NCBI GenBank assembly: GCA_012797695.1
Contig: JAAZOQ010000081.1
Location: 1-35,455 of the forward strand
Length of the DNA: 35,455 nucleotides
Source of the DNA: Anaerolineaceae bacterium
GTDB lineage: Bacteria > Chloroflexota > Anaerolineae > Anaerolineales > Anaerolineaceae
Direction of reading: 5' to 3'
The notes under the pieces were generated by a model. The model was not told where the DNA came from. It saw nothing but the letters and a program-made list of their open reading frames with translations, and searched no databases. Both the position numbers and the translations under genes were made by a program. Of the stretch, positions 127 to 31,558 are shown in pieces (the first letter of the stretch is position 1; each line of letters starts with the position of its first letter).

Positions 127-173
127 CAGTCTTGTCAAAACAGGGCAGTGTGGTATATAATCACTGCGTCCAA

Positions 174-247: not shown

Positions 248-255
248 CTAATGGC

Positions 256-306
256 AACCGGAAACCTCATAGTTCGGTAAATTGTGTACCCGTGAGGTTT
301 CCGGTT
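256..306. repeat. 14-bp perfect inverted repeat (AACCGGAAACCTCA ... TGAGGTTTCCGGTT), 23-nt spacer
   Basis: Arms at 256-269 and 293-306, between the tRNA 3' end and the integrase. Confidence 0.9.
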
Positions 307-464
307 CAAAAAAGGCCAAAATCTGCTCAACCGTAAACCGCACGGCTAGAAACCTCCAGTCTTTAAGAAAACCCAAGATTTCATCCCAAAAAAACACTCC
401 ATATCTTTATCGGACGGCTACCGATTTTATCGGTTGTCGTCGCTACATACCGGAGGTTGCACGG

Positions 465-5446: not shown

Positions 5447-6300
5447 ACCTCGTAGTAGACCGCATCTGCGCTAGCGCCATTGCCGCAGCCGTTGTAGCGA
5501 ATCGTCACCCGGTTGTCGCCAGGCAGTAATGTAAACCAGGCACCCAGGTCGGCTGACGGTCCTAGCTCCAGATTGTTATATGCGTCTGCCACATCGGTAC
5601 AGGTCACCTGCATTACTGCACAATCGACTTGCAATTTCCCTCCAGCGGGGATCGTGCCGGCATAGCTTAAAGTTTCCCCTCCATCACGTTCGATGATCAC
5701 GTTGCTTATGTCAGCGCCTCCGGCTTGGATTGTGATTACCAGAGCCCGGATCGGTGCCCGGCCAGGATCATCGGCCTCTCCTACTTTCCATATTGCCAGG
5801 GTTGGGCTGCCAATCAGCTTGACCTGGTTTGGGCTTCCGATGATATACCCCGTATTGAGCCGGATTCCTGAATTGAGCAGCCAGGCTCCTTTATAAATAC
5901 CGCGCCAGGCGCCATCCTGACAGACGAAACGCAGTTCCACGTCCTGGATGAAGCGAAACTTCGAAAGTTCATATGAACGAGTGGCGGCAATCTCGACCAA
6001 CCTGGCATAGACCCAATGTTCCTCGCCATTGTACAGACGCCTGTACAATCTATCTCGCTTCCCTCGCAATGCCATTAGTCGGAAAAAGAGGTGGCTTAAT
6101 TCCTGCTCACTGTCCGCGACCAGTCGTAGAGACTTTGTACGTTCCACTACACCTGGGAAACGCTGTTGAGCTCCGAAACCGTCCAGGGCGCCGCCTTCGG
6201 GTAGGTTGAAGTATCCGGTGTTGATTACACCTGATCCGATCAGGTCTATCTGGTTGGCGTAACTTAAGTCGAATGAACCGAAACGAATCAAACGATACAT
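5437..6300 (-). CDS. Distal tail (Dit-like) protein
   Basis: 287 aa; position directly after the tape measure; MYRLIRFGSFDLSYANQ... style of siphovirus tail components. Confidence 0.65.
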   Translation of the reverse strand: MYRLIRFGSFDLSYANQIDLIGSGVINTGYFNLPEGGALDGFGAQQRFPGVVERTKSLRLVADSEQELSHLFFRLMALRGKRDRLYRRLYNGEEHWVYARLVEIAATRSYELSKFRFIQDVELRFVCQDGAWRGIYKGAWLLNSGIRLNTGYIIGSPNQVKLIGSPTLAIWKVGEADDPGRAPIRALVITIQAGGADISNVIIERDGGETLSYAGTIPAGGKLQVDCAVMQVTCTDVADAYNNLELGPSADLGAWFTLLPGDNRVTIRYNGCGNGASADAVYYEVWY

Positions 6301-10792: not shown

Positions 10793-11136
10793 CCATTCCT
10801 CATTAATCTGACTTTGAATTGCATGTATTCGTGGCGGTTTTCGATGTCGTCTACGGATCCAATTACTTCGAAGCGTTTCTCGTCTTTAGTGACCGCGCAG
10901 GTGGAATCGAATCCGGCTTGATAACGCATGGTCACGGTTGCTGGCTGCTGTGCCTGGACTGCGTCGGCCGCCCACACCTCTGAGCCGTGCGCATTTATCC
11001 ATTTTGCTCGCACACAGACTATGGGTGTCCATGTAGGGCTCTTGAAACCACCCGTTTCTGTGGAAACGCTACGATTTTCCAGGGTGATAGTTGTTCGCAT
11101 TTCGCCGGGATTGAAAACACGACCATTCAAGATCAT
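10789..11136 (-). CDS. Head-tail adaptor (SPP1 gp16-like / head closure)
   Basis: Start at MILNGRVFNPGEMRTTITLENR... (ATG complement 11134-11136), 4-bp overlap with upstream gene. Confidence 0.75.
   Translation of the reverse strand: MILNGRVFNPGEMRTTITLENRSVSTETGGFKSPTWTPIVCVRAKWINAHGSEVWAADAVQAQQPATVTMRYQAGFDSTCAVTKDEKRFEVIGSVDDIENRHEYMQFKVRLMRNG
11051..11070. promoter_or_regulatory. parS-like palindrome GTTTC-TGTG-GAAAC
   Basis: CCCGTTTCTGTGGAAACGCT inside the head-tail adaptor gene. Confidence 0.5.
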
Positions 11137-11953: not shown

Positions 11954-13231
11954 TTACGCTCGCACGTCCAGCACCACAAAATGGCTGCGAGTAGAAGTGC
12001 CTTTAGCAGGCGTAATTGGTTTGGATAAGAACGGCTGTCCGTTCATGCGGAAGGTCCAACGAAAAGCTTGCAGACCATAGTCGAAATACAGGTGCATGCT
12101 GGAAGCGAACTGGATGCCGCCTTGGTTGGTGATAGAGTAATAGCCGGCACGCAGGTTGACCAATTGAATGTCTCCTTGGCTGCCCACCGTTTCACAGTGT
12201 TCCGAGAAACGCACTGGCCGGCCCAACAGGATTCCACCCGGGGCATTTGCAAACCCACTGGAAGGAGGTGTCCATATGGGTTGGTTACCCAAGGTCATCA
12301 GCATAAGCTGGGGCAGCACGTCTTGATTGATGTGCCATATCGCCCCAGAAGCCCCTAAGATGCGGGAGTACATCTTTGCAATGTTGTTTGCATTAACCGT
12401 GTTTGCAGTCTGGCCAGACTCTTTGGCTACACTTACCAAGCAGCCTGCTTTCATATAACCCAAGGGTTGGCCGGTACCGGTGCCACCAACGATTGCTGAA
12501 TTTGCCTTATAGCGAATGGCCTGCCCTGCTTTGCGGGTCAGGCGGGTTGCCAGCCGGGGCGCATCGGACATGATCTGGTCGGTGGCTGTGACGAATGCAT
12601 ACAGATCGTGTAGGCGCATCTGTTCACCTTCGGTGACCAGTTTGCTCGGGCTCATTTGAGAGGCTTCAGAGCGCCAGCGGGCCTGAACACCGGTTGCGCC
12701 CCAAGGGGTGGTCTCGTCTTTGAGAAATTCTACCGAATTGGAACTGGTCGGTTCGTTGTCTGTTTCTGGCAAGAGCGCATCTTCTTCCAGCGACACTTCC
12801 CAGATCTCCTGGCGGAAAGCCGGCGGAACCATGCTCCCTTCGGACGCCCCGCTTTCCTGGTGAAAATCTGTTGGCGCAGCACCCATGACCAGGCGTTCAT
12901 CTCGCAGACCGCCCGGCGTATAGAGGCTTTTCACGGCCAGTGCAAAATCGGCGACGTCGGCAAAACCGCGTTTGGGATCGTCTTCGATGCGCTCGTGGAT
13001 CTCGATGCGCTGCAGTGCCTGAGCAGTGCGTTCACGTTCCCGGCGCGCTTCGTGGCGCTGGATGTCGGCGTTGAGTACTTCCAACCGGACATTGATCTCG
13101 TCGTCGCGAGATTTTTCATCGGTAGACAAATCTCGATTCTCTTTTTCAGCACGTTCGAAGATTTGTTTCCCCTCGGCGATGAGATCGATGCGCTCCTGGA
13201 GCAGCGCTTTGTACAGTTTGTTTTCGTTCAC
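11954..13231 (-). CDS. HK97-family major capsid protein with N-terminal scaffold (delta) region
   Basis: 425 aa; coiled-coil N-terminus then HK97-fold signatures (VPPAFRQEIWE..., SAIVGGTGTGQPLG...). Confidence 0.92.
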   Translation of the reverse strand: MNENKLYKALLQERIDLIAEGKQIFERAEKENRDLSTDEKSRDDEINVRLEVLNADIQRHEARRERERTAQALQRIEIHERIEDDPKRGFADVADFALAVKSLYTPGGLRDERLVMGAAPTDFHQESGASEGSMVPPAFRQEIWEVSLEEDALLPETDNEPTSSNSVEFLKDETTPWGATGVQARWRSEASQMSPSKLVTEGEQMRLHDLYAFVTATDQIMSDAPRLATRLTRKAGQAIRYKANSAIVGGTGTGQPLGYMKAGCLVSVAKESGQTANTVNANNIAKMYSRILGASGAIWHINQDVLPQLMLMTLGNQPIWTPPSSGFANAPGGILLGRPVRFSEHCETVGSQGDIQLVNLRAGYYSITNQGGIQFASSMHLYFDYGLQAFRWTFRMNGQPFLSKPITPAKGTSTRSHFVVLDVRA

Positions 13232-13271: not shown

Positions 13272-14204
13272 CTACGGAGCGCAGTTTCCGGTCTCGAAGG
13301 AGCCGGAATTTTCGGTTAAACGCATCCTGCGCTTACGAAAATCGGTATCAGCGTTAGCGCTACGGCGTACTGTGCCTCGCTGTAAACGGGATACGGTCTC
13401 TTCAAGAGTGGCGATCCGGTCGGCCATGCCTAGGCTTACTGCCTGGCGTGCGCCGACCAATCTTCCTTCGCCAAATCCTTCCCGAACCTCGACCTGTTTT
13501 ACACCACGGTTACGGGCGATGGTTTTGACGAAACTGTCGTAATACTCTGCCACCCGGCTTTGCATGGCCGCTAGATTTTCTTCCGACAGGGGTTGGTAAG
13601 GATTTCCCTCGGTCTTATATTTCCCTTCGCTGATCAATGAGATTTTGATTCCCTGTTGGGTTAGCGATTCGCTTAAGTCTTCATGGATAGTAAACACACC
13701 AATCGAACCGACTTCTGCAGATGGCGTCACTATCAGTTCGTCTGCGGCCGTGCCGATCCAGTACGCAGCACTGGCCATCATGTGGTTGGCGATTGCCACG
13801 ATTGGCTTGGTTCCTCGGGCGTCGAAGATCTTCGTGCTTAACTCATCCACCCCTGGGACCTGCCCGCCTGGGCTGTCTACGTCTAACACGATTGCGCTTA
13901 CGTCCGGGTTTTTGACCAGGTCGCTGAACACGGCACCAAAACGTTCGGAGCTGGTAGCTCCACATACCTCTGTCATCAAATTAGCGCGTGGAAAGATGGT
14001 CCCGAACAAGGGAAGAATCGCTACGTTTCCGAAGGTGCGTTCTGCTGGCCGTTTGGCGCCGTGAATGCGATTTTGCACTTCTTCTGCATCTAGCTTTTCG
14101 CCAGCGAAATGCCGGGTTACGACCTCAACGATAACGGCGAAATTCGCCGGTAAGATTGCCCAGGGTGTTTCCATTGCTGCCCGCGTGAGGGTTACAGTCT
14201 TCAT
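13272..14204 (-). CDS. S49/SppA-family head maturation protease
   Basis: MKTVTL start at 14204 (ATGA overlap with portal); VLDVDSPGGQVPGVDELS, ASAAYWIGTAADELIVTPSAEVGSIGV. Confidence 0.92.
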   Translation of the reverse strand: MKTVTLTRAAMETPWAILPANFAVIVEVVTRHFAGEKLDAEEVQNRIHGAKRPAERTFGNVAILPLFGTIFPRANLMTEVCGATSSERFGAVFSDLVKNPDVSAIVLDVDSPGGQVPGVDELSTKIFDARGTKPIVAIANHMMASAAYWIGTAADELIVTPSAEVGSIGVFTIHEDLSESLTQQGIKISLISEGKYKTEGNPYQPLSEENLAAMQSRVAEYYDSFVKTIARNRGVKQVEVREGFGEGRLVGARQAVSLGMADRIATLEETVSRLQRGTVRRSANADTDFRKRRMRLTENSGSFETGNCAP

Positions 14205-15718
14205 TTCGACTCCTTTGTCAAATTGACCAACGTCCTGGTCCTGTGGGATTCCCATTGCTCTAGTACACCGGGGCCAAAAGCGATTAGGTCATTCCTGCCC
14301 TGACGTACGTATTCCGCGGCTGTCTCTTCCGAAATGCACATGGTTTGCGAGACAAAATCTGTATGTGCCGAGAAAAACTCTTCGACCGCAGTCGACCACC
14401 CACTGCTGTCACGCTTGTTTGCTCGCATCATTGCTGCAGACTCTTTGCGGGCCACGCGGGCAGCTGACTCATAGAGTAATTTCTCGTAATGGGCATTGCT
14501 ATCTTGAGCAGGAGTGGCTTCGGAAGCTGGGTTTACGTTGTTCACCCGCATGTTTAGCGGCGTCAGGTAGTCGTCATCGCCCCCGTCAACGGGGTTTAAA
14601 TTTTCGAACTTGCGAATTTCGTTAGTGGCCAACCATCCACCCTGCCGCCCAACCGAATAGGCGCCATAGCGTTTCATCAGGTCTCCGCGTAAGAGCGCAT
14701 CGGTCAGAAACTCGACGAAATACGTTTCTGAAGCGAGAATCAGGTCCTTGTCGATCAGCTGTTGCCAGCGTACCAACCAGGGTAACAAGACGAACGTCAC
14801 GAAACCTCGGGAAAGTTCTTCGATCCCTGTTCCCCAGCTGGTTGCTTTGCTGGTCAATCCCACCATGTGAGGCGGAACACGGAACCATCGGCATACATCT
14901 TCGGCTTGAAATTCTCTGGTTTGGAGCATTTGCGAGTCTTCTGGAGAGAGGCTGACTGCCTGCCACTCCATACCTTCTTCCAAGACGCCTAAACGGTGTA
15001 GATTTTCGCCACCTGTCATGCTTTCTACCTGTTTGACCAGGCGTTTTTGGGCTTCTTCCGACAAATTGCCGGGGTGTTTCAGAAACCCACCTGGGCGGGA
15101 ATAATTTGCAAACAGTAATGCTCCAAATCGCTCCGCCGCTAACGTCAACCCGAACGATTCCCGTGCATACGTGATCACCGAAACACCCTCGATTCCATCC
15201 AGGGATAGACCGCGCAGATGGAAGATTTCGTCGTTGAGGTAGATCTTTGTTGATCCATCCCTTTCGGTGACCCGGTAACGTAGCGTATCCTCGTCGATTT
15301 CTTCGACCAGGACCCGGCTTGGATGAATGGGTATGAGACGGTCTACCGGACCGCGAGGGCCGGGCTTGATCTTCGCATACCCGTTGCCGCGAAAGAGAGC
15401 GTGCATTTGCAGCATGTCCATGAACTCGAACGATGTCTGTCGCCGGTTGGGTTGGCCATGAAGAATGTCATACAAAGGATGGCCGGTGGCACGTTCTTTG
15501 GCGTCTTCGTCGAGTCGCCGGTATATGATCAGCGGAAGCATCGCCACGGTTTCGGCAATCAACCTGCCACAAGCCCAGGCTGTGGATATCTTCAGCGCGC
15601 TATCGGCGTTGATGTGTGTGCCTGATGTCGTGATCGATCCGCCAGAATTAGTCCAGTAACGTTCTTCATCTTCGGACAGCGAACTTGACTGGCCGAGTAG
15701 TTGCTGTAAGAACGTCAT
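14201..15718 (-). CDS. HK97-family portal protein
   Basis: 505 aa; ISTAWACGRLIAETVAMLPLIIYRR..., VCRWFRVPPHMVGL. Confidence 0.93.
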   Translation of the reverse strand: MTFLQQLLGQSSSLSEDEERYWTNSGGSITTSGTHINADSALKISTAWACGRLIAETVAMLPLIIYRRLDEDAKERATGHPLYDILHGQPNRRQTSFEFMDMLQMHALFRGNGYAKIKPGPRGPVDRLIPIHPSRVLVEEIDEDTLRYRVTERDGSTKIYLNDEIFHLRGLSLDGIEGVSVITYARESFGLTLAAERFGALLFANYSRPGGFLKHPGNLSEEAQKRLVKQVESMTGGENLHRLGVLEEGMEWQAVSLSPEDSQMLQTREFQAEDVCRWFRVPPHMVGLTSKATSWGTGIEELSRGFVTFVLLPWLVRWQQLIDKDLILASETYFVEFLTDALLRGDLMKRYGAYSVGRQGGWLATNEIRKFENLNPVDGGDDDYLTPLNMRVNNVNPASEATPAQDSNAHYEKLLYESAARVARKESAAMMRANKRDSSGWSTAVEEFFSAHTDFVSQTMCISEETAAEYVRQGRNDLIAFGPGVLEQWESHRTRTLVNLTKESK

Positions 15719-15867
15719 TGCTTCTGATCCCCGAAGAGTGAAATGGACATCAAGACCATGCCTGGGCCGATCCAGGCAGCTGGCGGATAGATTTGATACA
15801 ACCCGACCGCGAACGAAAACAGCCCAAGGATGAATACAGCCAGATTCAGGTCGACTTTACGTTTCAT
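15715..15867 (-). CDS. Small membrane protein (50 aa)
   Basis: MKRKVDLNLAVFILGLFSFAVGLYQIYPPAAWIGPGMVLMSISLFGDQKQ*; ATGA overlaps with both terminase and portal genes. Below the ORF track length cutoff. Confidence 0.7.
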   Translation of the reverse strand: MKRKVDLNLAVFILGLFSFAVGLYQIYPPAAWIGPGMVLMSISLFGDQKQ

Positions 15868-17483
15868 ACGACAAGCATGCCCCGTTTCTCATAGATACTC
15901 TTGTTGTCAATTGGTACCCCGGCGGCGAGTGCGTCACAGCGGGCCTGCCAGGATAAGATACCGGCCATTGCTGCATCGATCTTGAACGGTGAGTCCGGGC
16001 GCTCTTTGTAGATCACCCACAGAGCCTCTCCGTTTTCGTCCACCAGATTCAGTTTCTTGCGCACAGCATTTCCGATGTGACGGGAATAATCCTTGTTACC
16101 GTTGTGATGGATCTCCTGGGCTTTGATGGAATTGACAAAAGATTTGATCGCGTAGGCCATTGGTTTCAAACGGTTGGTCCACCAGGCGATGACGCGTTTT
16201 TCACCATACCGTCCGGCCCAGGTTGCGACTTGGGTTTCCCAATAGGGCGGGTCACAGTACATCCGCCAGACGTTGAATCGAGCGAACACCTCGGCCACGA
16301 CCGAGTCGATCTCTCCGTCCGGTGCTTCCCACTCATCGATGTTTTCCGGCTTTTCCCACAAACCAAGCAGCCATTGAAACCCAGTCTGGAGATGCGTTCC
16401 CACGAGCGCCACCGAATCCCGCCAACGGGCACCATCGAAGCCCAGGGTGATTGTGTCGCCTGGATGGACAGTGAATTCTTCGAGTGCCAGACTTTTCCAT
16501 ATTTCGAAGTCGAAGGCTTTCTCGCTGGCGCGTACCATGCGGTTCAACCACACTCGCTCTAGATAAGCTTTATCTGCTGTTGGGTCGCGCCATTGTTCGC
16601 AGATTCCATCGATGTCACTCCATTCGGCAACTGGACCGCTGGCTTCGATGACGGCGGCCCGAATGCCTTCAGGGGTGTTCAGGTCGTGCCTGTCCGAGGC
16701 CTGACGGTGGAAGAAAAAAAGCCGACTGTCCTGCAGGTCTCCTTCTGCCACACGGCGGGCGTAATCCATGGTGTCTTCTGCCACCGAGCCTTCGCCAGGG
16801 GAGGGTGCCGTAGTTACCTCTAGGCTCCAGGCATCGGATAAATAGCGTTTGGGGATGTTCGCCAGCATGGTTCGATGGGCTGATTTGAGCCTTGGGGTGT
16901 TCCAACGGTGTGTCTCGTCGCAAACTTGAAATGTGGTCCGGGCTCCATCTCGAGCATCGGGGGAGGATGCCAGGCTAACGGCCTTCCCATCGCCGTTGAT
17001 CCTCATGATTCGCTGGATCCCGACGTCGAAGTCGTCTACTACCCGACTGTACGTGACGATGATGCGCAAAGCGCCATAGGCCAGCTCGTCGGATTGTTCT
17101 TCGGTATAGGCGACGAGCGGAATATAGGGATCCGTTACACCAAAGCCCACCGGTACACCACGTGCGTCAAAGCCATCGCTACGGACAGGGGCATCGGGAT
17201 GGAGTTCGGCGGCAGCAATCAAAGCTGCAAACTCCGTTTTGGCAGATCCTTTCCGCATGCTGAGCGCACAGCGCTTGAAGCGCCTACGACCTGCCTGGGG
17301 ATGGCCCTTGGGATAAACCTCATACATGCGATAGATCAAGGCGCGTTTTTCCTGGTCCAGCCGCACTGGTTGGCCGCGTAGGTCGCCAGGGCCGTGTACA
17401 AGGTTCTCCTCGATCCATATACAGACCTGACTGCCCAGGCTGGGGTATACGATCTTGTCTTTGGGTACCATCAAAACGCTCAT
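15864..17483 (-). CDS. terL: Terminase large subunit
   Basis: 539 aa; RKGSAKTEFAALIAAAELHPDAPVR, FDGARWRDSVALVG, portal-adjacent. Confidence 0.92.
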   Translation of the reverse strand: MSVLMVPKDKIVYPSLGSQVCIWIEENLVHGPGDLRGQPVRLDQEKRALIYRMYEVYPKGHPQAGRRRFKRCALSMRKGSAKTEFAALIAAAELHPDAPVRSDGFDARGVPVGFGVTDPYIPLVAYTEEQSDELAYGALRIIVTYSRVVDDFDVGIQRIMRINGDGKAVSLASSPDARDGARTTFQVCDETHRWNTPRLKSAHRTMLANIPKRYLSDAWSLEVTTAPSPGEGSVAEDTMDYARRVAEGDLQDSRLFFFHRQASDRHDLNTPEGIRAAVIEASGPVAEWSDIDGICEQWRDPTADKAYLERVWLNRMVRASEKAFDFEIWKSLALEEFTVHPGDTITLGFDGARWRDSVALVGTHLQTGFQWLLGLWEKPENIDEWEAPDGEIDSVVAEVFARFNVWRMYCDPPYWETQVATWAGRYGEKRVIAWWTNRLKPMAYAIKSFVNSIKAQEIHHNGNKDYSRHIGNAVRKKLNLVDENGEALWVIYKERPDSPFKIDAAMAGILSWQARCDALAAGVPIDNKSIYEKRGMLVV

Positions 17484-18416: not shown

Positions 18417-19160
18417 TCAACACCACTTCAGGTACTGGATTCCACTCACGCAGAACGCACACCACAAGCGTTCGCCGGCGTCCAGGCAGGCCCACACGTC
18501 ACTGCCGATCTTACGGGTCTTGATTACTTGAAGTACGAGTAGTTCGGGCAAGTGGCCAACCACCGTTTCCACGGAAACGGTCGAGGGTTCCGTTCTAGCG
18601 TTGACGTATTCGGTGATCACCATGGCCTGTCGTCCGGCCGGTTCGTCTTCCGCCGGCAAGGCTGCCGGCTGCGCAGCCGTGAGGGCCTGCGCAGCGGCAG
18701 AATTACCGATAAGCTGGAGGTAAGGAAGGGGGTCCACGGCGCCAGACTTGAAGCCTGGTGCACCAGTACCAGGTATACGAATTTCGAAATGAAGGTGGGT
18801 AGCAGCCGGTGTGCGCTGGCCGTTGGCGTCTCGGACGTTGCCCGTCCAACCCATCGATCCGACTCGCTGGCCGGGTGAGATTGCTTGTCCAGTGCTGACA
18901 TCGATCCTGGATAAGTGGGCATAATAACTGTACCAACCACCGTGATCGAGTTTGACCAGGTTCCCGTATCCGGTTTGGTCCATACTGGCGATTACCACTG
19001 TGCCGGGCGCGGCAGCCAGGATGTCATCCATGGGGGAGATTACGTCCAGCCCATTGTGTCCCGGGTAACCATAAACCAGATACTCTTGCGGGTTTTCTCC
19101 GAAGAGCTGAGTGATGGTGAAGGGTTGGTATACTGGCCAGTTCTGTAGTTGCACATTCAT
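18417..19160 (-). CDS. M23 (LytM) peptidase endolysin with SH3-like C-terminus
   Basis: 247 aa; GHNGLDVISPMDD, YYAHLS, THLHFEIR; C-terminal YVNARTEPSTVSVETVVG. Confidence 0.9.
   Translation of the reverse strand: MNVQLQNWPVYQPFTITQLFGENPQEYLVYGYPGHNGLDVISPMDDILAAAPGTVVIASMDQTGYGNLVKLDHGGWYSYYAHLSRIDVSTGQAISPGQRVGSMGWTGNVRDANGQRTPAATHLHFEIRIPGTGAPGFKSGAVDPLPYLQLIGNSAAAQALTAAQPAALPAEDEPAGRQAMVITEYVNARTEPSTVSVETVVGHLPELLVLQVIKTRKIGSDVWACLDAGERLWCAFCVSGIQYLKWC
18561..18584. promoter_or_regulatory. parS-like palindrome GTTTC-CACG-GAAAC
   Basis: CACCGTTTCCACGGAAACGGTCGA in the M23 gene; 24 nt identical to the copy in parB. Confidence 0.65.
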
Positions 19161-20133: not shown

Positions 20134-20349
20134 TCATGGAAACCACTTTCTCTTTTCTCCACATAACGAACAAGAAACGTCGGTTACATAGCCTTCTATG
20201 ACAGCGATGACTTCCGTTTCTGTTTTTCCAAACAGTTCTTCTTCTAAGGCTTTGCGGTAGAGGAACAACCTTTGGATTCCACTGCTATTTCTACATACGT
20301 GTCCTAAAACATGGTTATTCTTACACCGCCAGGGTTTATTCCCGTTCAT
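20134..20349 (-). CDS. Zinc-ribbon-like small phage protein
   Basis: MNGNKPWRCKNNHVLGHVCRN...VTDVSCSLCGEKRKWFP; 14-bp overlap with the methyltransferase gene. Confidence 0.65.
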   Translation of the reverse strand: MNGNKPWRCKNNHVLGHVCRNSSGIQRLFLYRKALEEELFGKTETEVIAVIEGYVTDVSCSLCGEKRKWFP

Positions 20350-21130
20350 TTTCGAGTCCAATGGTAGAGTTATTCTCATAATCCGGCAATGCTTGTAATC
20401 GCTGCCGGATCACGTCTACATATTCCGCGGCGCGCTCGAAGCCGAGGGCGTTGCGGCCGGTTTCCTGGCAGGCAACCAGTGTCGTGCCGGAGCCCGCGAA
20501 TGGATCCAGTACCAATTCACCGGGGTTGGTGTAGGTCAAGACCAGCCAACGAAGCAGCTCGAGCGGTTTCTGGGTAGGGTGTAGAGATTTTCCATTGCGG
20601 TTGGAGAATTCGATCACATCGATGGGGTAGCGCCGGCCATCATTGATTACTTCCCGACTTTTACCGGCCCAGCCGTAATGGCTCGACCTCGAAGAAGATC
20701 GATCTCGCTTTACATATGGTTTTCCGGGTGTGAACTGAGGGTTATAGGTAGAAGCGGCACGTTTCCCGTCGTTGGAACGCCTGAAGTACCGGGAGAAAAT
20801 CAACACGTTCTCGTGGGCGCGCAACGGCCGTTCTCTGGCCGATAGGAACCCCATGGCGCAGGTCTTCTTCCAGATCAACTCGTAACGAAACCATTTGCGA
20901 TTGGATACGATCAGGTCTGTGGTGAACGGTTGTTGCGAGAACACGGCCACCACACCGTTGGGCTTGATCACCCGCCTAATCTCTTGCCACCAGGTTGCCA
21001 GATCGATCTTGTCGTCCCACGACAGATCGGTGGTTCCGTAGGGCGGATCGGTGACGACGGCATCTACCGAATTAGACTCTAATAACGGGAGGAACTGAAA
21101 ACAATCGCCGTGCCGGACTTCGATGCTCAT
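20336..21130 (-). CDS. DNA methyltransferase (DPPY-type, beta-like order)
   Basis: VVTDPPYGTTDLSWDD ... HPTQKPLELLRWLV ... LDPFAGSGTTLVAC; start MSIEVRHGD at 21130. Confidence 0.92.
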   Translation of the reverse strand: MSIEVRHGDCFQFLPLLESNSVDAVVTDPPYGTTDLSWDDKIDLATWWQEIRRVIKPNGVVAVFSQQPFTTDLIVSNRKWFRYELIWKKTCAMGFLSARERPLRAHENVLIFSRYFRRSNDGKRAASTYNPQFTPGKPYVKRDRSSSRSSHYGWAGKSREVINDGRRYPIDVIEFSNRNGKSLHPTQKPLELLRWLVLTYTNPGELVLDPFAGSGTTLVACQETGRNALGFERAAEYVDVIRQRLQALPDYENNSTIGLENERE

Positions 21131-21151
21131 AAAGGTCTCCGTTAAAGAAAA

Positions 21152-21179
21152 GGGCAGACAAAATGCATTTTGTCTGCCC
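21152..21179. repeat. 28-bp perfect palindrome upstream of methyltransferase gene
   Basis: GGGCAGACAAAATGCATTTTGTCTGCCC; followed on the minus strand by TTTTCTTT. Confidence 0.95.
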
Positions 21180-21225
21180 GGGATCTGTGCCTCGTTGCAA
21201 GCGATTCTATTATAGTACATGTATT

Positions 21226-21447: not shown

Positions 21448-21680
21448 CCTTCGTCGACCTCGACGTATTCCATCCGGCAGTTCTCGCACCGGCAACGGTG
21501 AGCCCAATATTCGTGAGCAGCTTCGGCCACGCGGTTCTGCATCACATCCATAGCGCTTTTCGACGTATGTGCCTGCCGGCAGGCCAGCGTCCAAGCCTGA
21601 TTTAATTGCAGCCCCGTCGTACATAACACCAAGTGCAAATGCATGCGGCCGACATGTTGGTTGAGCTTATGCGTACTCAT
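21444..21680 (-). CDS. Hypothetical small Cys-containing protein
   Basis: 78 aa; overlapping start/stop with neighbours; CRCENCRMEYVEV. Confidence 0.6.
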   Translation of the reverse strand: MSTHKLNQHVGRMHLHLVLCTTGLQLNQAWTLACRQAHTSKSAMDVMQNRVAEAAHEYWAHRCRCENCRMEYVEVDEG

Positions 21681-22495
21681 GAATCTACCGTTTCCGTAGA
21701 AACGCTTGCCGGAGTAATGTACCTGGAGCGCGCTGCCCCGGAAACGAGGTCGACGTACGTGGCGAATTTGTGCAAATCGCGTGTCAGTAACATACGCACC
21801 AGATAATCGGTCGCTTCGGCAGCGATACGCTGGTTGATTGCCAGCCCCTGGCTGTCGAGCATGGCTAGGTCAGCGCAAGATAAGCCCTCCTCACTGGTCT
21901 GCGTCTCTGGCTGCAAGGTGAGCAGCTCGGGATGTTGCTGGGAAGGCAATGGCAGCCAGGAGCAAAACCCGGTCAATTCGAACGGCCTGGCCGGCCGGTT
22001 GTGTCCGCAGCCCAGCAATACTTGCCCGGCAGCTTTGTGGTTTCCACAGTCCAGCCACCAATCGAGCACGCTGCTGGAATAATGACCAGCCACTGCTTTA
22101 CAGATGGCTTTACGGGCCTCGGCGTTATCGACGCAGCCGATATATAGCTTCAACTCGTTCTGATGATTCTGAGTCGAACGAAAAGGCTGAGGAAACCAGG
22201 TCACCGGTACTCCCCAGGCCAGGCCGTAACGGGTAGCCAGGGCTTCAGCTTTATTGTGTCCCACTTCGGCAAGGCAAAAATTCTGGCGGTAACAATTCTT
22301 CTGCTCGACCTGGTCTGGGTCCACGAACGTCACGCGGATACATTTTTGAAACTTTTCTTGCAGCAGGCGCGCCACGCGTACTATGGATGGCGCCAGCCAG
22401 GATCCGGTGCCTCCACAGCCGATCAGGGTAATATCGACTTCATTGGTGGAAGGCAACAACAGCCGGCAGGCCTGCAAGTAATCCAGATCAATCAT
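21677..22495 (-). CDS. PRTRC system ThiF-family (E1-like) protein
   Basis: ITLIGCGGTGSWLAPSIVRVA (Rossmann), VTFVDPDQVEQKNCYRQNF, conserved SCADLAMLDSQGLAINQRIA. Alternative start at 22504. Confidence 0.88.
   Translation of the reverse strand: MIDLDYLQACRLLLPSTNEVDITLIGCGGTGSWLAPSIVRVARLLQEKFQKCIRVTFVDPDQVEQKNCYRQNFCLAEVGHNKAEALATRYGLAWGVPVTWFPQPFRSTQNHQNELKLYIGCVDNAEARKAICKAVAGHYSSSVLDWWLDCGNHKAAGQVLLGCGHNRPARPFELTGFCSWLPLPSQQHPELLTLQPETQTSEEGLSCADLAMLDSQGLAINQRIAAEATDYLVRMLLTRDLHKFATYVDLVSGAARSRYITPASVSTETVDS
21686..21706. promoter_or_regulatory. parS-like palindrome GTTTC-CGTA-GAAAC
   Basis: TACCGTTTCCGTAGAAACGCT at the 3' end of the ThiF gene. Confidence 0.6.
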
Positions 22496-23144
22496 CGAAG
22501 ACATCCAACACCTCCGGTTCTTCGATTTCGACGTTGTTCGAGTCCATGGCCCGGGCTGCACTATTCACGTCGTGAACACCGGCAGGCAGGTCGAAGATCC
22601 AGCGCGCCGGGATCCCCCAGAAGTGGCCATAGACGCCGGCGCGTACTGCGATGGACGGGTTGTGCCCCAGGTTGCCCAGCACAGCGAAGATGCGGAATCC
22701 GGCCTGTTCGTCGTGATCGTCGGTCTTGGAAAAATACGGCTGCATATTGTGATGGCTATGGATCTCGATCATCGTGTCACTGCCACTGGCGTACGGATCG
22801 ACCGGGAATACGCTACCTTTGCTCTGCACCTGCTCGGGCAGTGCCAACCGCCATGGGTTAGGTGAAAGGTAGAAAAGAATCTCCTTGTCACCGGCCCGGA
22901 AAGCCATCTCGAACATGCGTCCAACCAGCCAGGCCGGGACAGGTTTGTATACCCGAACAAAAGGTTGCACCTGTGCCAAACCGCGAATCTCGTTGTTAGT
23001 AGCCGCCACCCAGATCAGCGCTTCCAGGCCTGGGCGGCTGGCGCGCACGAAAATACCGTTGCTGCCGATGACGTACTCATACAGGCCAGCTGGCGCCGGC
23101 GGCAACGTTTCTTGGCGTGCAAAGATATGGTTTACGAACATCAA
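22488..23144 (-). CDS. PRTRC system protein A (JAB/JAMM peptidase-like)
   Basis: JAMM-like MIEIHSHHNMQPYFSKTDDHDEQ in a 218 aa protein, next to ThiF and the E2-like gene. Confidence 0.85.
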   Translation of the reverse strand: MMFVNHIFARQETLPPAPAGLYEYVIGSNGIFVRASRPGLEALIWVAATNNEIRGLAQVQPFVRVYKPVPAWLVGRMFEMAFRAGDKEILFYLSPNPWRLALPEQVQSKGSVFPVDPYASGSDTMIEIHSHHNMQPYFSKTDDHDEQAGFRIFAVLGNLGHNPSIAVRAGVYGHFWGIPARWIFDLPAGVHDVNSAARAMDSNNVEIEEPEVLDVFDD

Positions 23145-23833
23145 CGCACCTCCAATAAAGAATCGATGACCCGGCCGATGGTAAAACCATTGGCAAGGGG
23201 AACCAGGTCATTTGCCGGATAGGTATGCGTTCCGGCTAGACTGCGCAGTTGGGAGCGTATGTCCTTCTCGCATTTTTTCGATTTTCCATTCACCAGATGG
23301 TCGTTGAATGGAGAGGCGAAGAATAATTCCCAGACCTGCCGGGCTTTGCCGGGACTAGCTTCTCCGGGGGTATTACTACCCCAGCATACCGAGCCATTGT
23401 CGTTGACGTTGGGAAATGGGGCCTTATAAGCGCGCTCGCCCGGGTCGAAGTGTTTGCTGTGTAATGCCCAAACGTAATAGTTGAGACCTGTTCCCAGTAA
23501 GACGGTGCGTGGCAGGGGAACGAGCAGGCTTTCGCCATCGATGATGATCGTCGCATTCTGTGCCGGTGGACTATAGACGTACCACAGACCATTGGCATTT
23601 CGGCCGGTGCGTACCGTACCGGCGGCAAACCACCCGGAGTCGATCTCGACGTGGTGAATGGCAGCCATTACGTCGGCTACGGTGACGAACTTGCTGGACA
23701 TACCATCTCCGTCTGGATAGCGGAACAGGAAATGCCCCTCCAAAAAATAGAGGATACCGTTCACTTTGAATTCCGGCGGGCGGATCGATGCAGGATCGAT
23801 TACCATGATTGGATCACAAGTGGTTTGTAACAT
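23141..23833 (-). CDS. PRTRC system protein B (E2-like)
   Basis: YKAPFPNVNDNGSVCWGSNTP (E2-like active-site region with Cys) plus position beside A. Confidence 0.82.
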   Translation of the reverse strand: MLQTTCDPIMVIDPASIRPPEFKVNGILYFLEGHFLFRYPDGDGMSSKFVTVADVMAAIHHVEIDSGWFAAGTVRTGRNANGLWYVYSPPAQNATIIIDGESLLVPLPRTVLLGTGLNYYVWALHSKHFDPGERAYKAPFPNVNDNGSVCWGSNTPGEASPGKARQVWELFFASPFNDHLVNGKSKKCEKDIRSQLRSLAGTHTYPANDLVPLANGFTIGRVIDSLLEVR

Positions 23834-24725
23834 TGCCTTCCTCCTTTGCCGTTGTCTCGCCGGCCCAGATATCCATCAGGGTTCGGGCGGAGGACGTTAC
23901 CTTGACACGGGCTTTTTTGATCAGGCATTGCAGATAGACTTCGAAGATTTGGCCGGCGAGACCAGGCTCTTGCAAGAAGCGCCGGTCGGCTTCTCTGAGG
24001 GCAGACTGGATCTCAATGGCTTGTTGGTACTCTTTGGCCAGAGCACGGATGCCGTCCACGTTGAACGGCGGCAGGCCCCAATCGCCTGCGTTTTCGTCGT
24101 ACAGGTTGAAATCGAAGTAAAGATTCCCGGATTGATAACAGCACACGTCACAGGCCAGGCTAAAACACCCCAACCCGCGCATCTGTAAGGTGCGGTCGAA
24201 GCGTTCCCAATCGAAGCCCTCTGAGTCACCGATGATAGGAACGGTGAAGTTCCATCCCCATCGTTCAATAGCCTGCTCCAGGCGTTCGAACTCTCCGAAT
24301 CGGAGCAAGGTGAAGAACACGTACATAGCTAATCCGTCCGATGTGTCCTGGAGGTCCTCGACGAGTTCTTCCCATTCATCCCAACCCATTGGATATCCGA
24401 GTGGTTCGGGGATCAGGTAGTAGACGTCGTTATCCAGGGCCAACGATTCCATGTAATCTATGTCGATGGGCGCGATTTCATAGATCGATTCCAACAACGC
24501 GCCCCGAATCAGATCGGTGTCGTTTCTGTCCAATAACCGACCAAAGTTGGCGGCCGCTTTCGAAAAGGCGGCCTGGTCCATCTCGGCCAGTATCCGGCCA
24601 CAGGTGATCACGAAATGCATGTCAGATAGCAGGTTGGTTGCTGTCAGCAGGCTGGGCTGTTTCCGCTCACGAAGGCGGGTACGAACGTCGGCCAGGCTCG
24701 GGCCAGTGACGATGGCCGTTTCCAT
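23814..24725 (-). CDS. Candidate PRTRC system protein F (by position)
   Basis: 303 aa ORF between C-like and B-like genes; family assignment mainly from gene order. Confidence 0.5.
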   Translation of the reverse strand: METAIVTGPSLADVRTRLRERKQPSLLTATNLLSDMHFVITCGRILAEMDQAAFSKAAANFGRLLDRNDTDLIRGALLESIYEIAPIDIDYMESLALDNDVYYLIPEPLGYPMGWDEWEELVEDLQDTSDGLAMYVFFTLLRFGEFERLEQAIERWGWNFTVPIIGDSEGFDWERFDRTLQMRGLGCFSLACDVCCYQSGNLYFDFNLYDENAGDWGLPPFNVDGIRALAKEYQQAIEIQSALREADRRFLQEPGLAGQIFEVYLQCLIKKARVKVTSSARTLMDIWAGETTAKEEGNVTNHL

Positions 24726-25153
24726 CAGAACCCCAGAATAACTGCCGGCGCCGGCTGGGCAGCTGAGCGGGCCAGACGCCTGGACATAGATTCAATGGCT
24801 TCGGCCTGCTCTTCCCCCTCAGCCAACGCCCGGTCGATACGTTCGTCCATTTCCAGGACCTGGACCAGATCTACCTGGTCTCTTTCGTCCATGGCTTGCA
24901 ACTCTTCGTAAAGCTGGATGATCGGATTCTTCCTGCCTTGGCAGCGGATCAACTCTGTCAGGGCGATGCCCTTCGTGCCAGCGCGTTTTACGATGGTGAT
25001 GGTCGTCACTCCATCCTTTTCTACCCGGGTAAGCATGGCGTTGCTCACCTGGGGGAAGAATGGAGTCATGGCACGCTTGACGGTTTCGTCGTTGGCGCCG
25101 ATCTCTTCAGGAACGGGGATCGTTTGTCCCTCGATTACTACGTTGTAAGTCAT
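24725..25153 (-). CDS. PRTRC system protein C-like ubiquitin-like protein with C-terminal extension
   Basis: MTYNVVIEGQTIPVPEEIGANDETVKRAMTPFFPQVSNAMLTRVEKDGVTTITIVKRAGTKG then about 80 further residues. Confidence 0.7.
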   Translation of the reverse strand: MTYNVVIEGQTIPVPEEIGANDETVKRAMTPFFPQVSNAMLTRVEKDGVTTITIVKRAGTKGIALTELIRCQGRKNPIIQLYEELQAMDERDQVDLVQVLEMDERIDRALAEGEEQAEAIESMSRRLARSAAQPAPAVILGF

Positions 25154-26478
25154 TGTTGGTCTCCATTCGCAAATTGGCTGCGCAGCTCTCGAACCAGGCT
25201 GAGAAGCTGCTCGGGGAATGTGATTTGTGCCTGGCGTGCCATAGCCACACGTGGTAGATCCTGATTGACACGCGCTCCAATCATTACAGCTCTTCCTTGT
25301 GGGTGCCCATCGTCTGGCCAGCAGGTTAGGGTCATCGTAATGGTGGAGGCTGCCCAGGTGGGCGTCTTTTCAGTCGGTTTCTCACCGGTGACCTGGTCGG
25401 CTTCTGGCCGGGTTGGTTGTGGAGGCTGTACGGATTGGGGCGCCAGTGATTGGCTGTGGCTTTCCTCAAGGGAAATTTTCTGGATCGTCTCTGCCACCGG
25501 CTGGGTCTCGGGTTCTGGTCGGGGCAGGGGCATGGAAGCCGGCTGGGTAGGGGTATATTCGACCTCCGGGGCACAGTTCTCATCATCTGCAGTCTGCGAT
25601 TCTCCCTGGAGTATTGTTTCCCCGGAAGCGCTCGGTGCAGGAAGCTCCCCAGTGCCATGGCTTTCCTGGAACACCGTTTCCACGGAAACGGTCGAAGGTG
25701 CCCAGGATTCTGGTGTAACCTCTGTTTGGCGGGGTGGTGCTGCCGGCATGGGTTGCGGCCGATTGACGGTGTAGCTCATCTGGCGAATACGCTCTAGAAG
25801 CAGTTCCGGAGCCTCGCCGGCGCATGCTGCAGCGACAATCGAGGAGGGCCTCAGGCGTTCGTCTTGCAACGTCTCTCCTGCTTCCAACTGCCAGGTGGAA
25901 ATATCGTACAGGACCAGCAGTGACCTGGCTGCGCCCTCGGTAATCTGCCCGCCGGCCAGGTGGTCTTGGATCTGTCCTGGTAACTTCAGCAGGCGCAGTT
26001 TATTGCGTACGGCCGAGCCCCCCAGGCCGAATAGAGCGCCGATCTCGCTGCTCGTCTTGCCGAACTCATCCCGGTAGACCTGCATGGCTCGGGCTTGCTC
26101 GATCACATTTAGGTCTTTCCGGTCACTATTCTCTCTCACTGCCAGTTCGAACATGGTGAGATCATCCAGTTCCCGGACGATCACCGGCATGACCGCAAAG
26201 CGGGTCATGGCTACGATGTCATCGACTGGCAGATCGCCGCGTTGAATTTGCCGGTTAAGCAGTTTGAAGGCAGCCAGACGAGTGTGCCCGAAGGCCAGTT
26301 GTATCCCGCCGGTGCTGCGCCGGCCAATGGGAATTTGTATCAGGTCGCGCACGAAGATCGATCTGGCAATCCGTTCCACGTGTTCGGGGTCCTCGGCCAA
26401 CCGGGTTTGGTATGGGTTGGGTGCGATCCATTCCAACTCGATCAGCTCTGGGGTGTATTCGATGGCTTTCCCGCTCAT
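25150..26478 (-). CDS. parB: PRTRC system ParB-family protein
   Basis: Start MSGKAIEYTPELIELEWIAPNPYQTR; ParB/Srx box-like GIQLAFGHTRLAAFKLL, HTH GKTSSEIGALFGLGGSAVRNKLRLLKLP. Confidence 0.88.
   Translation of the reverse strand: MSGKAIEYTPELIELEWIAPNPYQTRLAEDPEHVERIARSIFVRDLIQIPIGRRSTGGIQLAFGHTRLAAFKLLNRQIQRGDLPVDDIVAMTRFAVMPVIVRELDDLTMFELAVRENSDRKDLNVIEQARAMQVYRDEFGKTSSEIGALFGLGGSAVRNKLRLLKLPGQIQDHLAGGQITEGAARSLLVLYDISTWQLEAGETLQDERLRPSSIVAAACAGEAPELLLERIRQMSYTVNRPQPMPAAPPRQTEVTPESWAPSTVSVETVFQESHGTGELPAPSASGETILQGESQTADDENCAPEVEYTPTQPASMPLPRPEPETQPVAETIQKISLEESHSQSLAPQSVQPPQPTRPEADQVTGEKPTEKTPTWAASTITMTLTCWPDDGHPQGRAVMIGARVNQDLPRVAMARQAQITFPEQLLSLVRELRSQFANGDQQ
25672..25695. promoter_or_regulatory. 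parS-like palindrome GTTTC-CACG-GAAAC
   Basis: CACCGTTTCCACGGAAACGGTCGA inside parB; a degenerate copy GTTTC-CCCG-GAAGC sits about 60 bp away (25616-25629). Confidence 0.65.
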
Positions 26479-26744
26479 GCTTTTCCTCCAGGCCCGGCCT
26501 GTACCGCCGGGTCGTCTAACTTGTTGGCCGCCGGTGTTTGTACCAGGTCGGGCTCGATGATAGATACTCCCCCCATGGCGTCGATAATACGTTCGATACA
26601 CTTGGCCAATTCCTGATCGTCGATTTGCATCACGACGCCTCGCTGTGCGCGCACAGTCGGGAGCAGGCTTACCAGGCCGTCGATAAGGTCGTCGAACCGG
26701 GCCTGGTGGTAATAATTCTGGAATACAACGAACATCGTTTTCAT
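26475..26744 (-). CDS. Hypothetical protein of the parB operon
   Basis: 89 aa, 4-bp overlaps with both neighbours. Confidence 0.6.
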   Translation of the reverse strand: MKTMFVVFQNYYHQARFDDLIDGLVSLLPTVRAQRGVVMQIDDQELAKCIERIIDAMGGVSIIEPDLVQTPAANKLDDPAVQAGPGGKA

Positions 26745-27463
26745 GGGTCATCCATGTAGTATTTCGAGAATGTATCGTTCAGATACTTGTTTTCACGCTC
26801 TTCGATCCGAACCGGCCAGTTGTGTTCGATGCGGTAGATTGCCTGGCCAGGCGACTCGGAGTGTGTGCAGTGATATTCGACCAGCGCGGGGGTGACGTGA
26901 GCCATGCCTGCCAGGCGTAAGCGGGCTGGATCGCGGATGTGATACCGGTTGAGTGCTGCCAGGTTTTCAGAGGTCTGATCCTGAAAATCAGCTCCGGAAA
27001 AATCGGAGCTGATTCTTCCGCTAGCTAGTAGTAGATTTTCTGTATTGTGATTAATATTTAAATCTCTACTACTAGCTAGAGAGCCAGCTCCGATTTTCGG
27101 AGCTACACTGGTATACAAAGTATCCGGGACGTCCGGTGACGTATCCTCGTCGATGTCGATCACTGCCTGCTCATCATCCACCTGGGCGTGAGCAGGCTCG
27201 GGAGCATCGAGGCCGTCTGCATAGAGAGGTAGCTGCTGATAGGTGCCGTCATCCAACGCCCAGGTATATCGACCGGTCTGGATGAGCATACCGGCATCTG
27301 CCAGGAGCATCACGCCATCATGGATGTTCTCGGCGCTGTAGCCCGTGAAGCGCCGCATATACTCCTGATTTAATGGCCGGCGCTCGGCCAGGAAAAGCAG
27401 CACGATACTGGCAGCGGCACCCTTCAAGGCACGTACCTGTAACGAGGTCAGGTTAAATTCCAT
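26741..27463 (-). CDS. Winged-helix replication-initiation/replisome-organizer-like protein
   Basis: 240 aa; wHTH-like YMRRFTGYSAENIHDGVMLLADAGMLIQTGRYTWALDD; central low-complexity region contains a large palindrome. Confidence 0.5.
   Translation of the reverse strand: MEFNLTSLQVRALKGAAASIVLLFLAERRPLNQEYMRRFTGYSAENIHDGVMLLADAGMLIQTGRYTWALDDGTYQQLPLYADGLDAPEPAHAQVDDEQAVIDIDEDTSPDVPDTLYTSVAPKIGAGSLASSRDLNINHNTENLLLASGRISSDFSGADFQDQTSENLAALNRYHIRDPARLRLAGMAHVTPALVEYHCTHSESPGQAIYRIEHNWPVRIEERENKYLNDTFSKYYMDDP
26986..27104. repeat. Nested inverted repeats inside the replication-like gene (candidate origin)
   Basis: IR1 26986-26996/27004-27014 (11 bp), IR2 27021-27038/27060-27079 (18 bp with 2-nt bulge), IR3 27086-27093/27097-27104 (8 bp); IR1 and IR3 share AGCTCCG arms, AT-rich centre. 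Confidence 0.9.
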
Positions 27464-27786: not shown

Positions 27787-28785
27787 TCAACTCAGCTCCA
27801 GTCCCAGTAGTTCTGAAACTGTCATCCAGTGTTCATCCCGCCTGCCGTCCAGCATGTGTAAATAGACCTGGGTTATGGCCAGGTTAGAGTGGCCAAGAAA
27901 CTCCATGATCTCTTGATCGCTGGCACCGGCGGCTTTGCGCAGCATGGCGCCCGTATGCCGCAGACTATGTGGTTTGATGTGGGTGGCGTCCAGACCGGCC
28001 TGGCGGAGGTATCTCTTCAACAAACGGCCGACTTCGTGGGCAGAAAGCGCCTGTTCTCCCACGGTGCCGCCATTGGGCATTACCTGGCCCTGGCGACTGA
28101 GCGGGGTAAAGATGTAATCTTCGGCTTTCAGTTTGCCCAGCCGGCCGGCGGCCCGCAGGTATTCGCACAACGCGTTCCACAGCGGCAGGGGTACTTCCAG
28201 GCGCTGGTCGCTCTTGCCCTTGCCAGACCAGCGGAAGAAGACTAGATCGCCGTGCCGGTCGAAGTTGCCCCATCTGGCCAGGCGCCATTCGGTGTTGCGC
28301 CTGGCCAGTAAGACGTAGCCGAGAAACAGGGCAAAATCGCGTCGCCCCTGCAGTGTGCCGCGGTAGATGGCGCGTAGTAGACTACGCGCCTCGTCCGGGG
28401 ACAGCCAGGCAGCCTTCCCATAAAGCTCTACGTTTGGCCGCAGGGCTTTGCCTGCGGCCGGGTTGACGTTGTGTAGTGGGGTTTGGCTACCTGGCAGGTA
28501 GTAATCTTCGATGGTGAACTGGTAGAAGCTGCTGATGGCCGCCAGGCGCTGGGCGACGGTGGCCGGTGCATTGCCGCGGGTTTCCATTTCGTTCACCCAG
28601 CGATGGACGTCGGTCCTGGTCACTTCCCAGGGTAAACGGTTAGTGCTGGTGAGCAGGTCCTCGAGCGCCTTGGCGTATGCCCGGCGGGTGGCGTCGCTGC
28701 GCCGTGATTGCAGCCACAGAGTGATAGCGTCTCCCCAGGCGGTATTGTCGACGTGGATCTTCAGGGAAGTGACCGGGGTGTCCAT
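27787..28785 (-). CDS. Second tyrosine recombinase (XerC/D-like)
   Basis: 332 aa; GKGKSDQRLEVPL, HSLRHTGAMLRKAAGASDQEIMEFLGHSNLAITQVYLHM. Confidence 0.9.
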   Translation of the reverse strand: MDTPVTSLKIHVDNTAWGDAITLWLQSRRSDATRRAYAKALEDLLTSTNRLPWEVTRTDVHRWVNEMETRGNAPATVAQRLAAISSFYQFTIEDYYLPGSQTPLHNVNPAAGKALRPNVELYGKAAWLSPDEARSLLRAIYRGTLQGRRDFALFLGYVLLARRNTEWRLARWGNFDRHGDLVFFRWSGKGKSDQRLEVPLPLWNALCEYLRAAGRLGKLKAEDYIFTPLSRQGQVMPNGGTVGEQALSAHEVGRLLKRYLRQAGLDATHIKPHSLRHTGAMLRKAAGASDQEIMEFLGHSNLAITQVYLHMLDGRRDEHWMTVSELLGLELS

Positions 28786-31074: not shown

Positions 31075-31108
31075 TAGAGTGTTTACATTTCGTTATAATA
31101 AAAATGTC

Positions 31109-31558
31109 ATGATAAAAGATTGGATTACCCAAAAATATATAGCTTACCGGGGAGATGCCATTGGCAATGAGAAGTCTATAAGCGATTTTGCACGCTACCT
31201 TGAAGTTAGTCAGTCATTGTTGTCAGAATGGATGGCTGGCAAAAAAAAACCAGGTATAAAGTCGATTGACAAAATCGCTAAGAAATATCCTGAAATCTAT
31301 GATGTGATGGGATTACATCAACCATCTCAAGATGAACTATTAGGTCTACCAAAATCATTACGTACGAGGTTACGAGCTGCTCTTGCTGAAATGCATGCAG
31401 AATATAATGCAAGGAGCTTATTGTTAGATGATCCAGAGGCTGAAAAAATCGCAATAGAAATTCTGGAAAAACACGGATTCAAATACACCCGGACATCGAA
31501 CTCTGGAGAGTCATTTGTCATAGGATCTGGAATAATTGTTGATTCTAAGCAGTCGTGA
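31109..31558 (+). CDS. CI-like/XRE-type HTH transcriptional regulator
   Basis: MIKDWITQKYIAYRGDAIGNEKSISDFARYLEVSQSLLSEWMAGKKKPGIKSIDKIAKKYPEIYDVMG; TATAAT at 31094-31099 suggests a near-leaderless message. Confidence 0.8.
   Translation: MIKDWITQKYIAYRGDAIGNEKSISDFARYLEVSQSLLSEWMAGKKKPGIKSIDKIAKKYPEIYDVMGLHQPSQDELLGLPKSLRTRLRAALAEMHAEYNARSLLLDDPEAEKIAIEILEKHGFKYTRTSNSGESFVIGSGIIVDSKQS

Follow-up and report, generated by a model that had tools for sequence, protein, structure and literature searches.

A predicted PRTRC-type ubiquitin-like cassette and class-matched parS-like palindromes in tailed-phage prophages of Anaerolineaceae

PRTRC (ParB-related, ThiF-related cassette) has been known from plasmids for almost two decades as a cassette of an E1 enzyme, an E2 enzyme, a ubiquitin-like protein (Ubl) and a JAMM protease. 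Iyer et al. 2006 (PMC1779556) describe this operon type (row 6d), propose that it modifies and de-modifies targets, and suggest that such operons serve either in addiction or in protecting the cell from invasive replicons. Judged by titles and abstract openings, none of the papers retrieved with the term PRTRC, some of which use the letters in an unrelated sense, is about its function, and no paper linking PRTRC to phage biology was found in a search outside which subscription papers and preprints lay. Here we describe such a cassette in contig JAAZOQ010000081.1 of an Anaerolineaceae bacterium, whose metagenome-assembled genome (GCA_012797695.1; G000 in our numbering) comprises 3.2 Mb in 440 contigs. 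The entire contig, 35,455 bp, is the window of this analysis. Six minus-strand genes at 21677-26478, together under 5 kb, encode ParB, the Ubl protein C, a helical protein, E2, JAMM and E1, with overlaps of 1-20 bp. An earlier note made from the DNA letters had described a consecutive, same-strand run of ParB, Ubl C, a candidate F, E2, JAMM and ThiF/E1, which the coordinates confirm; its overlap range of 4-20 bp was nearly exact. Judged by its genes, this unit is almost certainly a phage-borne Ubl cassette of PRTRC type, most likely one that carries out Ubl conjugation and is coupled to a ParB/parS complex, lacking ParA, on phage DNA.

Type 6d, as set out in the accessible parts of PMC1779556, shares with the window a Ubl with a C-terminal glycine, a helical protein, an E2 with a conserved cysteine, a JAB protein with an N-terminal domain and an E1; rows 6a-6e there treat bacteria and conjugative elements, and phages appear for the JAB and Ubl genes of tail clusters, not for 6d or linked ParB sites. 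The PRTRC of a beta-proteobacterial plasmid (Cupriavidus oxalaticus, NZ_CP032520) agrees with the window in order, strand, the set of E1, JAMM, E2, Ubl and ParB, and a Ubl core ending in KG. Unlike the plasmid form, the window lacks E, its F is unrecognisable, its A and B fall below the family cut-offs, its C has an 80-residue extension ending in GF, its ParB is of another family and has an added domain, and the carrier is a temperate tailed phage whose parS-like sites are class-specific. Cyanobacterial plasmid operons (Nostoc and others) resemble the window in their E2 proteins (33-38% identical) and in a C extension ending in P-x-GF, but encode a homologue of the ParB tail as a separate gene upstream of C, whereas in the window it is fused to ParB; the matches include plasmids, and no match to the window's head-tail genes was found nearby. 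In Burkholderia phage BgVeeders33 (OK665841), C, F, B, A and ThiF, all above cut-off or clearly matched, follow the window's order, and an E-like gene is also present. Unlike the window, it is a Mu-like contractile phage with canonical PRTRC sequences, and no ParB stands among the annotated neighbours viewed. Because BgVeeders33 has the full cassette, and large phages (Vibrio D69, Salmonella Arash, Bacillus KLEB27-3) have diverged E1/JAMM/E2 sets, phage-borne PRTRC is not unique to this lineage.

The three enzyme genes, all on the minus strand, differ in how closely they match the PRTRC families. E1 (21677..22495) scores 151.5 bits against the PRTRC ThiF model TIGR03736, whose cut-off is 144.75, and its profile matches UBA6 and UBA5. 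It keeps the GxGGxG nucleotide motif and D59/D61, R70, Q71 and K82 in invariant columns, and Cys207 is conserved. The E2 protein (PRTRC B; 23141..23833) belongs to Prok-E2_D (PF14460, 84.1 bits against a cut-off of 25), and its candidate active-site Cys150 is invariant in 14 sequences, diverged phage ones included; its sole NCBIfam match, PRTRC B (TIGR03737, E=4e-14), reaches 52 bits against a cut-off of 131.45. The JAMM/JAB protease (PRTRC A; 22488..23144, TTG start) passes the Prok-JAB cut-off (PF14464, 27.1 against 25) and keeps the JAMM motif H129-S-H131 ... S139-x2-D142 in all complete alignment rows; PRTRC A (TIGR03735, E=6e-15) is likewise its sole NCBIfam match, at 55 against 101.8. 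With an E1 nucleotide motif and cysteine, an E2 cysteine, a JAMM motif and a Ubl glycine that is either internal (KG62) or penultimate (G141) in the precursor, the sequence features of an E1-E2-Ubl-JAMM system are present, and the cassette probably performs active conjugation. Where the earlier note had proposed hidden Markov model searches against the PRTRC families, ThiF thus stands above its cut-off, A, B and ParB stand below theirs, and F finds no match.

The gene order ParB-C-helical-B-A-ThiF is the conserved one-strand plasmid order ParB-E-C-F-B-A-ThiF without E: no gene lies between ParB and C, where the ParB tail sits, a domain not detectably homologous to E. The all-helical protein in the F position (23814..24725, minus strand) shows no homology to TIGR03742, and PRTRC_F identity was rejected for it (0 of 19 homologues match the model; hhalign 0.4%). 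Its AlphaFold model is almost wholly helical (mean predicted local distance difference test, pLDDT, 82) and a structure search of the PDB gave no counterpart, so that little remains of the proposed 'candidate F' beyond position and helical content.

Protein C (24725..25153, minus strand) aligns with canonical PRTRC C over the Ubl core in profile-profile comparison (hhalign 98.2%, E=4e-14) and reads as a PRTRC C-type pro-Ubl; a single-sequence family search gave no direct Prok_Ub match for it, and syntenic Chloroflexota C proteins surpass the Prok_Ub cut-off. It consists of beta-grasp-like residues 1-62 ending ..KRAGTKG and an 80-residue helical extension ending ..GF. The AlphaFold2 model (pLDDT 82) has two strands, a helix and two strands, as for beta-grasp, and then the helical extension. 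K61-G62 is invariant in 22 homologues, as is the final residue F142. Canonical plasmid C proteins finish at or just past KG in four of the five examined, the short endings being ..GTKG, ..YKG or ..AKGAHA. The simplest reading is a pro-Ubl that would be cut after KG, and the JAMM protein may be the protease that cuts there. In one Chloroflexota genome (G102, L035 17327-17900) ..VGTKG is the exact end of the C gene product, and a separate small open reading frame that follows has the similar ending ..LPDGW. Beside E2-, JAMM- and E1-like genes, Vibrio phage D69 (OZ195729; L065 388-1179) encodes a protein of three Ubl repeats that all end in GTKG, and a further C-type protein (L182 6842-7696) has two tandem Ubl domains with ..GEKG repeated.

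C could instead be a ThiS/MoaD-like thiocarboxylate carrier in sulfur chemistry rather than a protein conjugated to targets, since sulfur carriers, too, can be accompanied by E1-like ThiF enzymes and JAB proteases (PMC1779556). An E2 with an invariant cysteine is always present with the cassette, the neighbourhood showed no genes of sulfur metabolism and C groups with Prok_Ub, which makes a sulfur carrier highly improbable.

The operon type itself, as Ubl, E1, E2, JAMM and ParB genes within a tailed-phage prophage, is borne out by the family matches above and by the head-tail genes on the same contig. The window contains the terminase, portal, protease, major capsid, tape-measure, integrase and repressor genes of an HK97-type tailed phage; a minor tail gene also shares the cassette's contig and strand. 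Downstream of the cassette on that strand follow a DNA methyltransferase, an M23 peptidase, and terminase, portal, protease, capsid and tail genes. Four other Anaerolineaceae prophages have the cassette upstream of the terminase gene terL: G366:C71, G313:C7, G312:C13 and G352:C1 (our genome and contig numbers), the last in the complete genome of Leptolinea sp. HRD-7 (AP024710). The layout is not chance, since it recurs in these four. G313:C7 and G312:C13, found in a portal search of relatives, are sister prophages from the same genus as the window (portal 67%, terL 75%, capsid 72%), and in both the order ParB-C-E2-JAMM-E1 sits between repressor and terminase. The terminases of G366:C71 and G352:C1 are unlike the window's, with several head-tail genes in common; terL, portal and capsid differ between phages around the same cassette, which indicates that the head module is exchanged and the cassette retained. 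Catalytic residues are kept across the five prophages at 31-56% protein identity. The earlier note had also expected expression together with phage replication genes, for which there is no basis, since no replication genes were identified in the window.

Hits above the Prok-E2_D cut-off came from 17 of 350 relatives and from 24 of 301 genomes across the phylum. In the contig search, an alignment-based query found phage-borne relatives of the cassette, all labelled Anaerolineaceae or Chloroflexi, and a single-sequence query found none. A search of INPHARED with the window's E2 found no relative, and one with ThiF found diverged relatives. The nearest sequence to the window's ThiF (57%) lies in a metagenome-assembled genome labelled as another phylum (Desulforudis SURF_60; L138, QZIR01000065.1), in which an HK97-type portal was found only on a different contig.

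ParB (25150..26478, minus strand) has ParB_N and helix-turn-helix (HTH) domains, with the recognition region that we call class I, then a linker and a C-terminal domain. It scores 80.3 bits against TIGR00180 and 62.2 against HTH_ParB (cut-off 22.6). With the PRTRC ParB model TIGR03734 it reaches 20.9 bits against 278.6, so the ParB of the earlier note is present and coupled to C, but it is a ParB of another family. Its tail (about residues 355-438) matches separate proteins (hhalign 96.3%, E=1.6e-9), which cyanobacterial and acidobacterial PRTRC operons encode upstream of C. Related phages that lack PRTRC have ParBs with other tails, and the fusion to the PRTRC-associated domain is found in the window, G366 and G352. 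The window's ParB can be read as a phage ParB half joined to a PRTRC-associated domain. PRTRC_E was considered for the tail and rejected (hhalign below 1%). No Walker-motif or ParA match was found across the five prophage regions.

Each of the five cassette prophages contains a dispersed palindrome that matches its ParB class, GTTTCYRYRGAAAC or TGTTTGCGCGCAAACA. The window holds four exact copies of GTTTCNNNNGAAAC, and all four whole-genome copies of the refined class I motif, GTTTCYRYRGAAAC, lie in it. One (GTTTCCACGGAAAC, 25676..25689) is inside parB, where a near match (GTTTCCCCGGAAGC, 25616..25629) also occurs; the others lie at the 3' end of the ThiF gene (21690..21703, a position kept in prophage G366:C71), in the M23 peptidase gene (18565..18578) and in a head-tail gene for a 153-residue protein (11054..11067, the same gene as in G366:C71). 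Synonymous codon shuffling of the window's genes gives an expectation of 0.09 class I sites. In G366 the prophage contains all six genomic copies of GTTTCYRYRGAAAC, and three occupy genes that also have a site in the window (parB, the ThiF end and the 153-residue gene). In G357 and G315 both copies (2/2 each) are prophage-borne, and the ParBs of these prophages share about 50% identity with the window's. Refinement of the class I motif drew on some of these sequences, so the window, G366, G357 and G315 counts lack full independence.

Two results are independent tests. In G312 all four copies of GTTTCYRYRGAAAC lie on prophage contig C12; a ParB was sought there because the motif pointed to it, and a class I ParB was discovered 45 bp from a motif site. 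The ParBs of G313, G312:C13 and G352 have a recognition region that differs from the window's (class II), and a motif-free palindrome scan found ATGTTTGCGCGCAAACAT in each of these three and not in the window or G366. Exact copies of TGTTTGCGCGCAAACA fall inside the class II prophages in seven of seven whole-genome occurrences in G352, five of five in G313 and five of five in G312; in G303, one of two lies in its PRTRC fragment. Two ParB classes thus match two prophage-confined palindromes, which we predict to be their sites. Within the single genome G312, the prophages C12 and C13 differ in ParB class and their parS-like palindromes form two sets that do not overlap, a natural specificity test. 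The earlier note had allowed that phage module and PRTRC genes might prove to be on separate elements. This is refuted, because the cassette shares a contig with the phage genes, four other prophages have it at that location too, and candidate ParB sites are found in cassette and structural genes alike.

From these elements a mechanism can be proposed. The JAMM protease would trim pro-C after Lys61-Gly62; E1 would adenylate Gly62 and hand the Ubl to Cys150 of E2; and the Ubl would be joined to a target, from which the JAMM protease could also remove it. ParB would load at the parS-like sites across cassette and structural genes and coat the phage DNA, and its PRTRC-associated C-terminal domain would bring the conjugation machinery to the ParB-DNA complex. 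If the tail acts in this way, the main targets would therefore be ParB itself or proteins bound to phage DNA. The outcome may be control of the state of the phage genome, through lysogen maintenance, silencing or release of late genes, or packaging. A conjugation target on the complex of ParB and phage DNA is possible though far from assured, and the full explanation, with ParB/phage-DNA targeting included, is equally tentative. A stronger version, in which ParB clamps mark the phage's own DNA, the ParB tail recruits E1, E2 and Ubl for local tagging, and DNA-addressed modification replaces ParA-driven partition, strikes us as rather unlikely.

Several points weigh against this explanation. Neither A nor B reaches its PRTRC cut-off, E is missing and F cannot be recognised. 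A PDB fold search with C returned nothing significant (best E=0.046; the small beta-grasp domains protein L and Dsk2 UBL are among the weak top matches), and the conserved GF end of C offers a second candidate glycine, removal of the extension being conjectural. Related phages that lack PRTRC (G357 and G315) also have a class I ParB, and ParB/parS can therefore do without the cassette. The ThiF tree places the five phage sequences in one supported set of 14 rows (100/97) together with others, among them G575, G546 and G337, which are without an HK97-type portal; the phage cassettes do not form a clade of their own, and plasmid-like or integrative and conjugative element (ICE)-like elements of Chloroflexota are interspersed among them. 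Such a mixed tree makes exchange between phages and other elements likely.

The mixed tree and the class I ParBs of PRTRC-less phages would also suit a passenger, that is, a captured plasmid cassette kept by modular exchange with no function in the phage cycle, beside a ParB that acts alone. A passenger would not be expected to keep its catalytic residues and its position in five prophages (31-56% identity) despite exchange of the head module, nor to have its associated domain fused to ParB in the window, G366 and G352, and we regard this as improbable.

Bil tags phage tail proteins, and Bil and type II cyclic-oligonucleotide-based anti-phage signalling systems (CBASS; Cap2/Cap3) share an E1, E2 and JAB logic with the cassette; that such bacterial E1/E2/JAB/Ubl systems counter phage makes prophage defence a natural alternative. 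The cassette would then tag components of competing phages, or exclude superinfecting phages or plasmids, with ParB a mere neighbour. Exclusion genes are frequent in prophages, and roles in addiction or protection were proposed in 2006 (PMC1779556). The E2 families and gene sets of Bil and type II CBASS differ from the window's, and no CD-NTase was seen here. PADLOC, used with no dedicated Bil model, made no system-level defence call, matching only generic E1-E2 models on ThiF and a type III-C accessory model on C. This last model (PDLC01077, 'C3a152, Type III-C specific', E=5e-18) appears, from its match to C, to contain PRTRC C-like Ubl proteins among CRISPR accessories. The constant position between ParB and terminase in five prophages is unlike a typical, variable cargo gene, and the PRTRC-associated domain on ParB also speaks against defence, which we rate as rather unlikely.

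The Ubl might instead be put on host proteins during induction or infection, blocking immunity or redirecting the cell. The diverged E1/JAMM/E2 sets of D69, Arash and KLEB27-3 are in keeping with such counter-defence or host take-over, and in Arash (L064 1519-4539) the proteins gp246 (E1), gp247 (JAMM) and gp248 (E2-like position) are among 116 particle proteins identified by mass spectrometry, compatible with delivery into the cell. That as many as 116 proteins appear in one particle preparation suggests carry-over, and take-over would leave the coupling to ParB/parS unexplained; we consider it unlikely. The preferred reading thus remains a Ubl-conjugation cassette coupled to the ParB/parS complex.

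The window is most likely the greater part of a temperate tailed-phage prophage of Anaerolineaceae. Nearly all genes between about 30 kb and 1.5 kb are on the minus strand, among them those for the phage DNA methyltransferase (20336..21220, phrog_67), the terminase large subunit (15864..17483, phrog_9, E=6e-68), portal (14201..15718, phrog_12, E=4e-111), head maturation protease (13272..14255, phrog_53, E=1e-87), major capsid protein (11954..13231, phrog_10, E=1e-41) and tape-measure protein (6300..8555, phrog_1272, E=2e-53). The tape-measure and tail genes are what suggest the label 'siphovirus-type' given earlier. A phage-repressor-like regulator (31079..31558, plus strand, phrog_8, E=3e-6) has a homologue in the sister prophages. 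Further small coupled genes flank the cassette on both sides. Upstream of it on the same strand, an 89-residue protein of no family (26475..26744) is translationally coupled to ParB, and a 240-residue protein without a family match (26741..27463) has homologues in PRTRC prophages or fragments of G312, G313, G352, G366 and G303 and in the PRTRC-less prophage of G357.

At the left end, the end of a host-type kinase gene and a tRNA-Pro (CGG; 174..248, plus strand), the presumed attachment site, are followed by a tyrosine integrase (282..1400, plus strand; phrog_1, E=7e-47, and PF00589), and the kinase-tRNA junction recurs in further genomes of this genus. No duplicate of the tRNA-Pro end (attR) turned up when the window was searched for one; the right boundary was not located, a search with host genes for the right end giving no relative. 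Three 126-bp tandem repeats at 35082-35455 read as tetratricopeptide repeat-like units inside which the contig stops, and they probably broke the assembly. The window has two tyrosine recombinases, of which the Xer-like one (27787..28785, minus strand; 58% identical to its counterpart in the Leptolinea sp. HRD-7 prophage) is common to other PRTRC prophages and the integrase beside the tRNA-Pro was not found in them. Near the right end, in a GC-poor stretch, 31694-32968 encodes a 424-residue protein that has a TM2 domain at its C-terminus and matches HIRAN weakly. Genome contamination is 5.6%, and a second junction of kinase end and tRNA-Pro (G000:C191:5850-6115) is 69% identical to window 1-251; the contig could for these reasons belong to a related, contaminating organism. 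The linkage of cassette and phage is unaffected, because it lies inside one contig and recurs elsewhere, including in a complete genome.

For PRTRC, this lineage offers a compact unit, a complete genome (AP024710), a predicted DNA address in two classes that serve as mutual controls, and a predicted processing site. The role of PRTRC thereby becomes testable, in the form of the question whether a bacterial Ubl system acts on the ParB-DNA complex of a mobile element.

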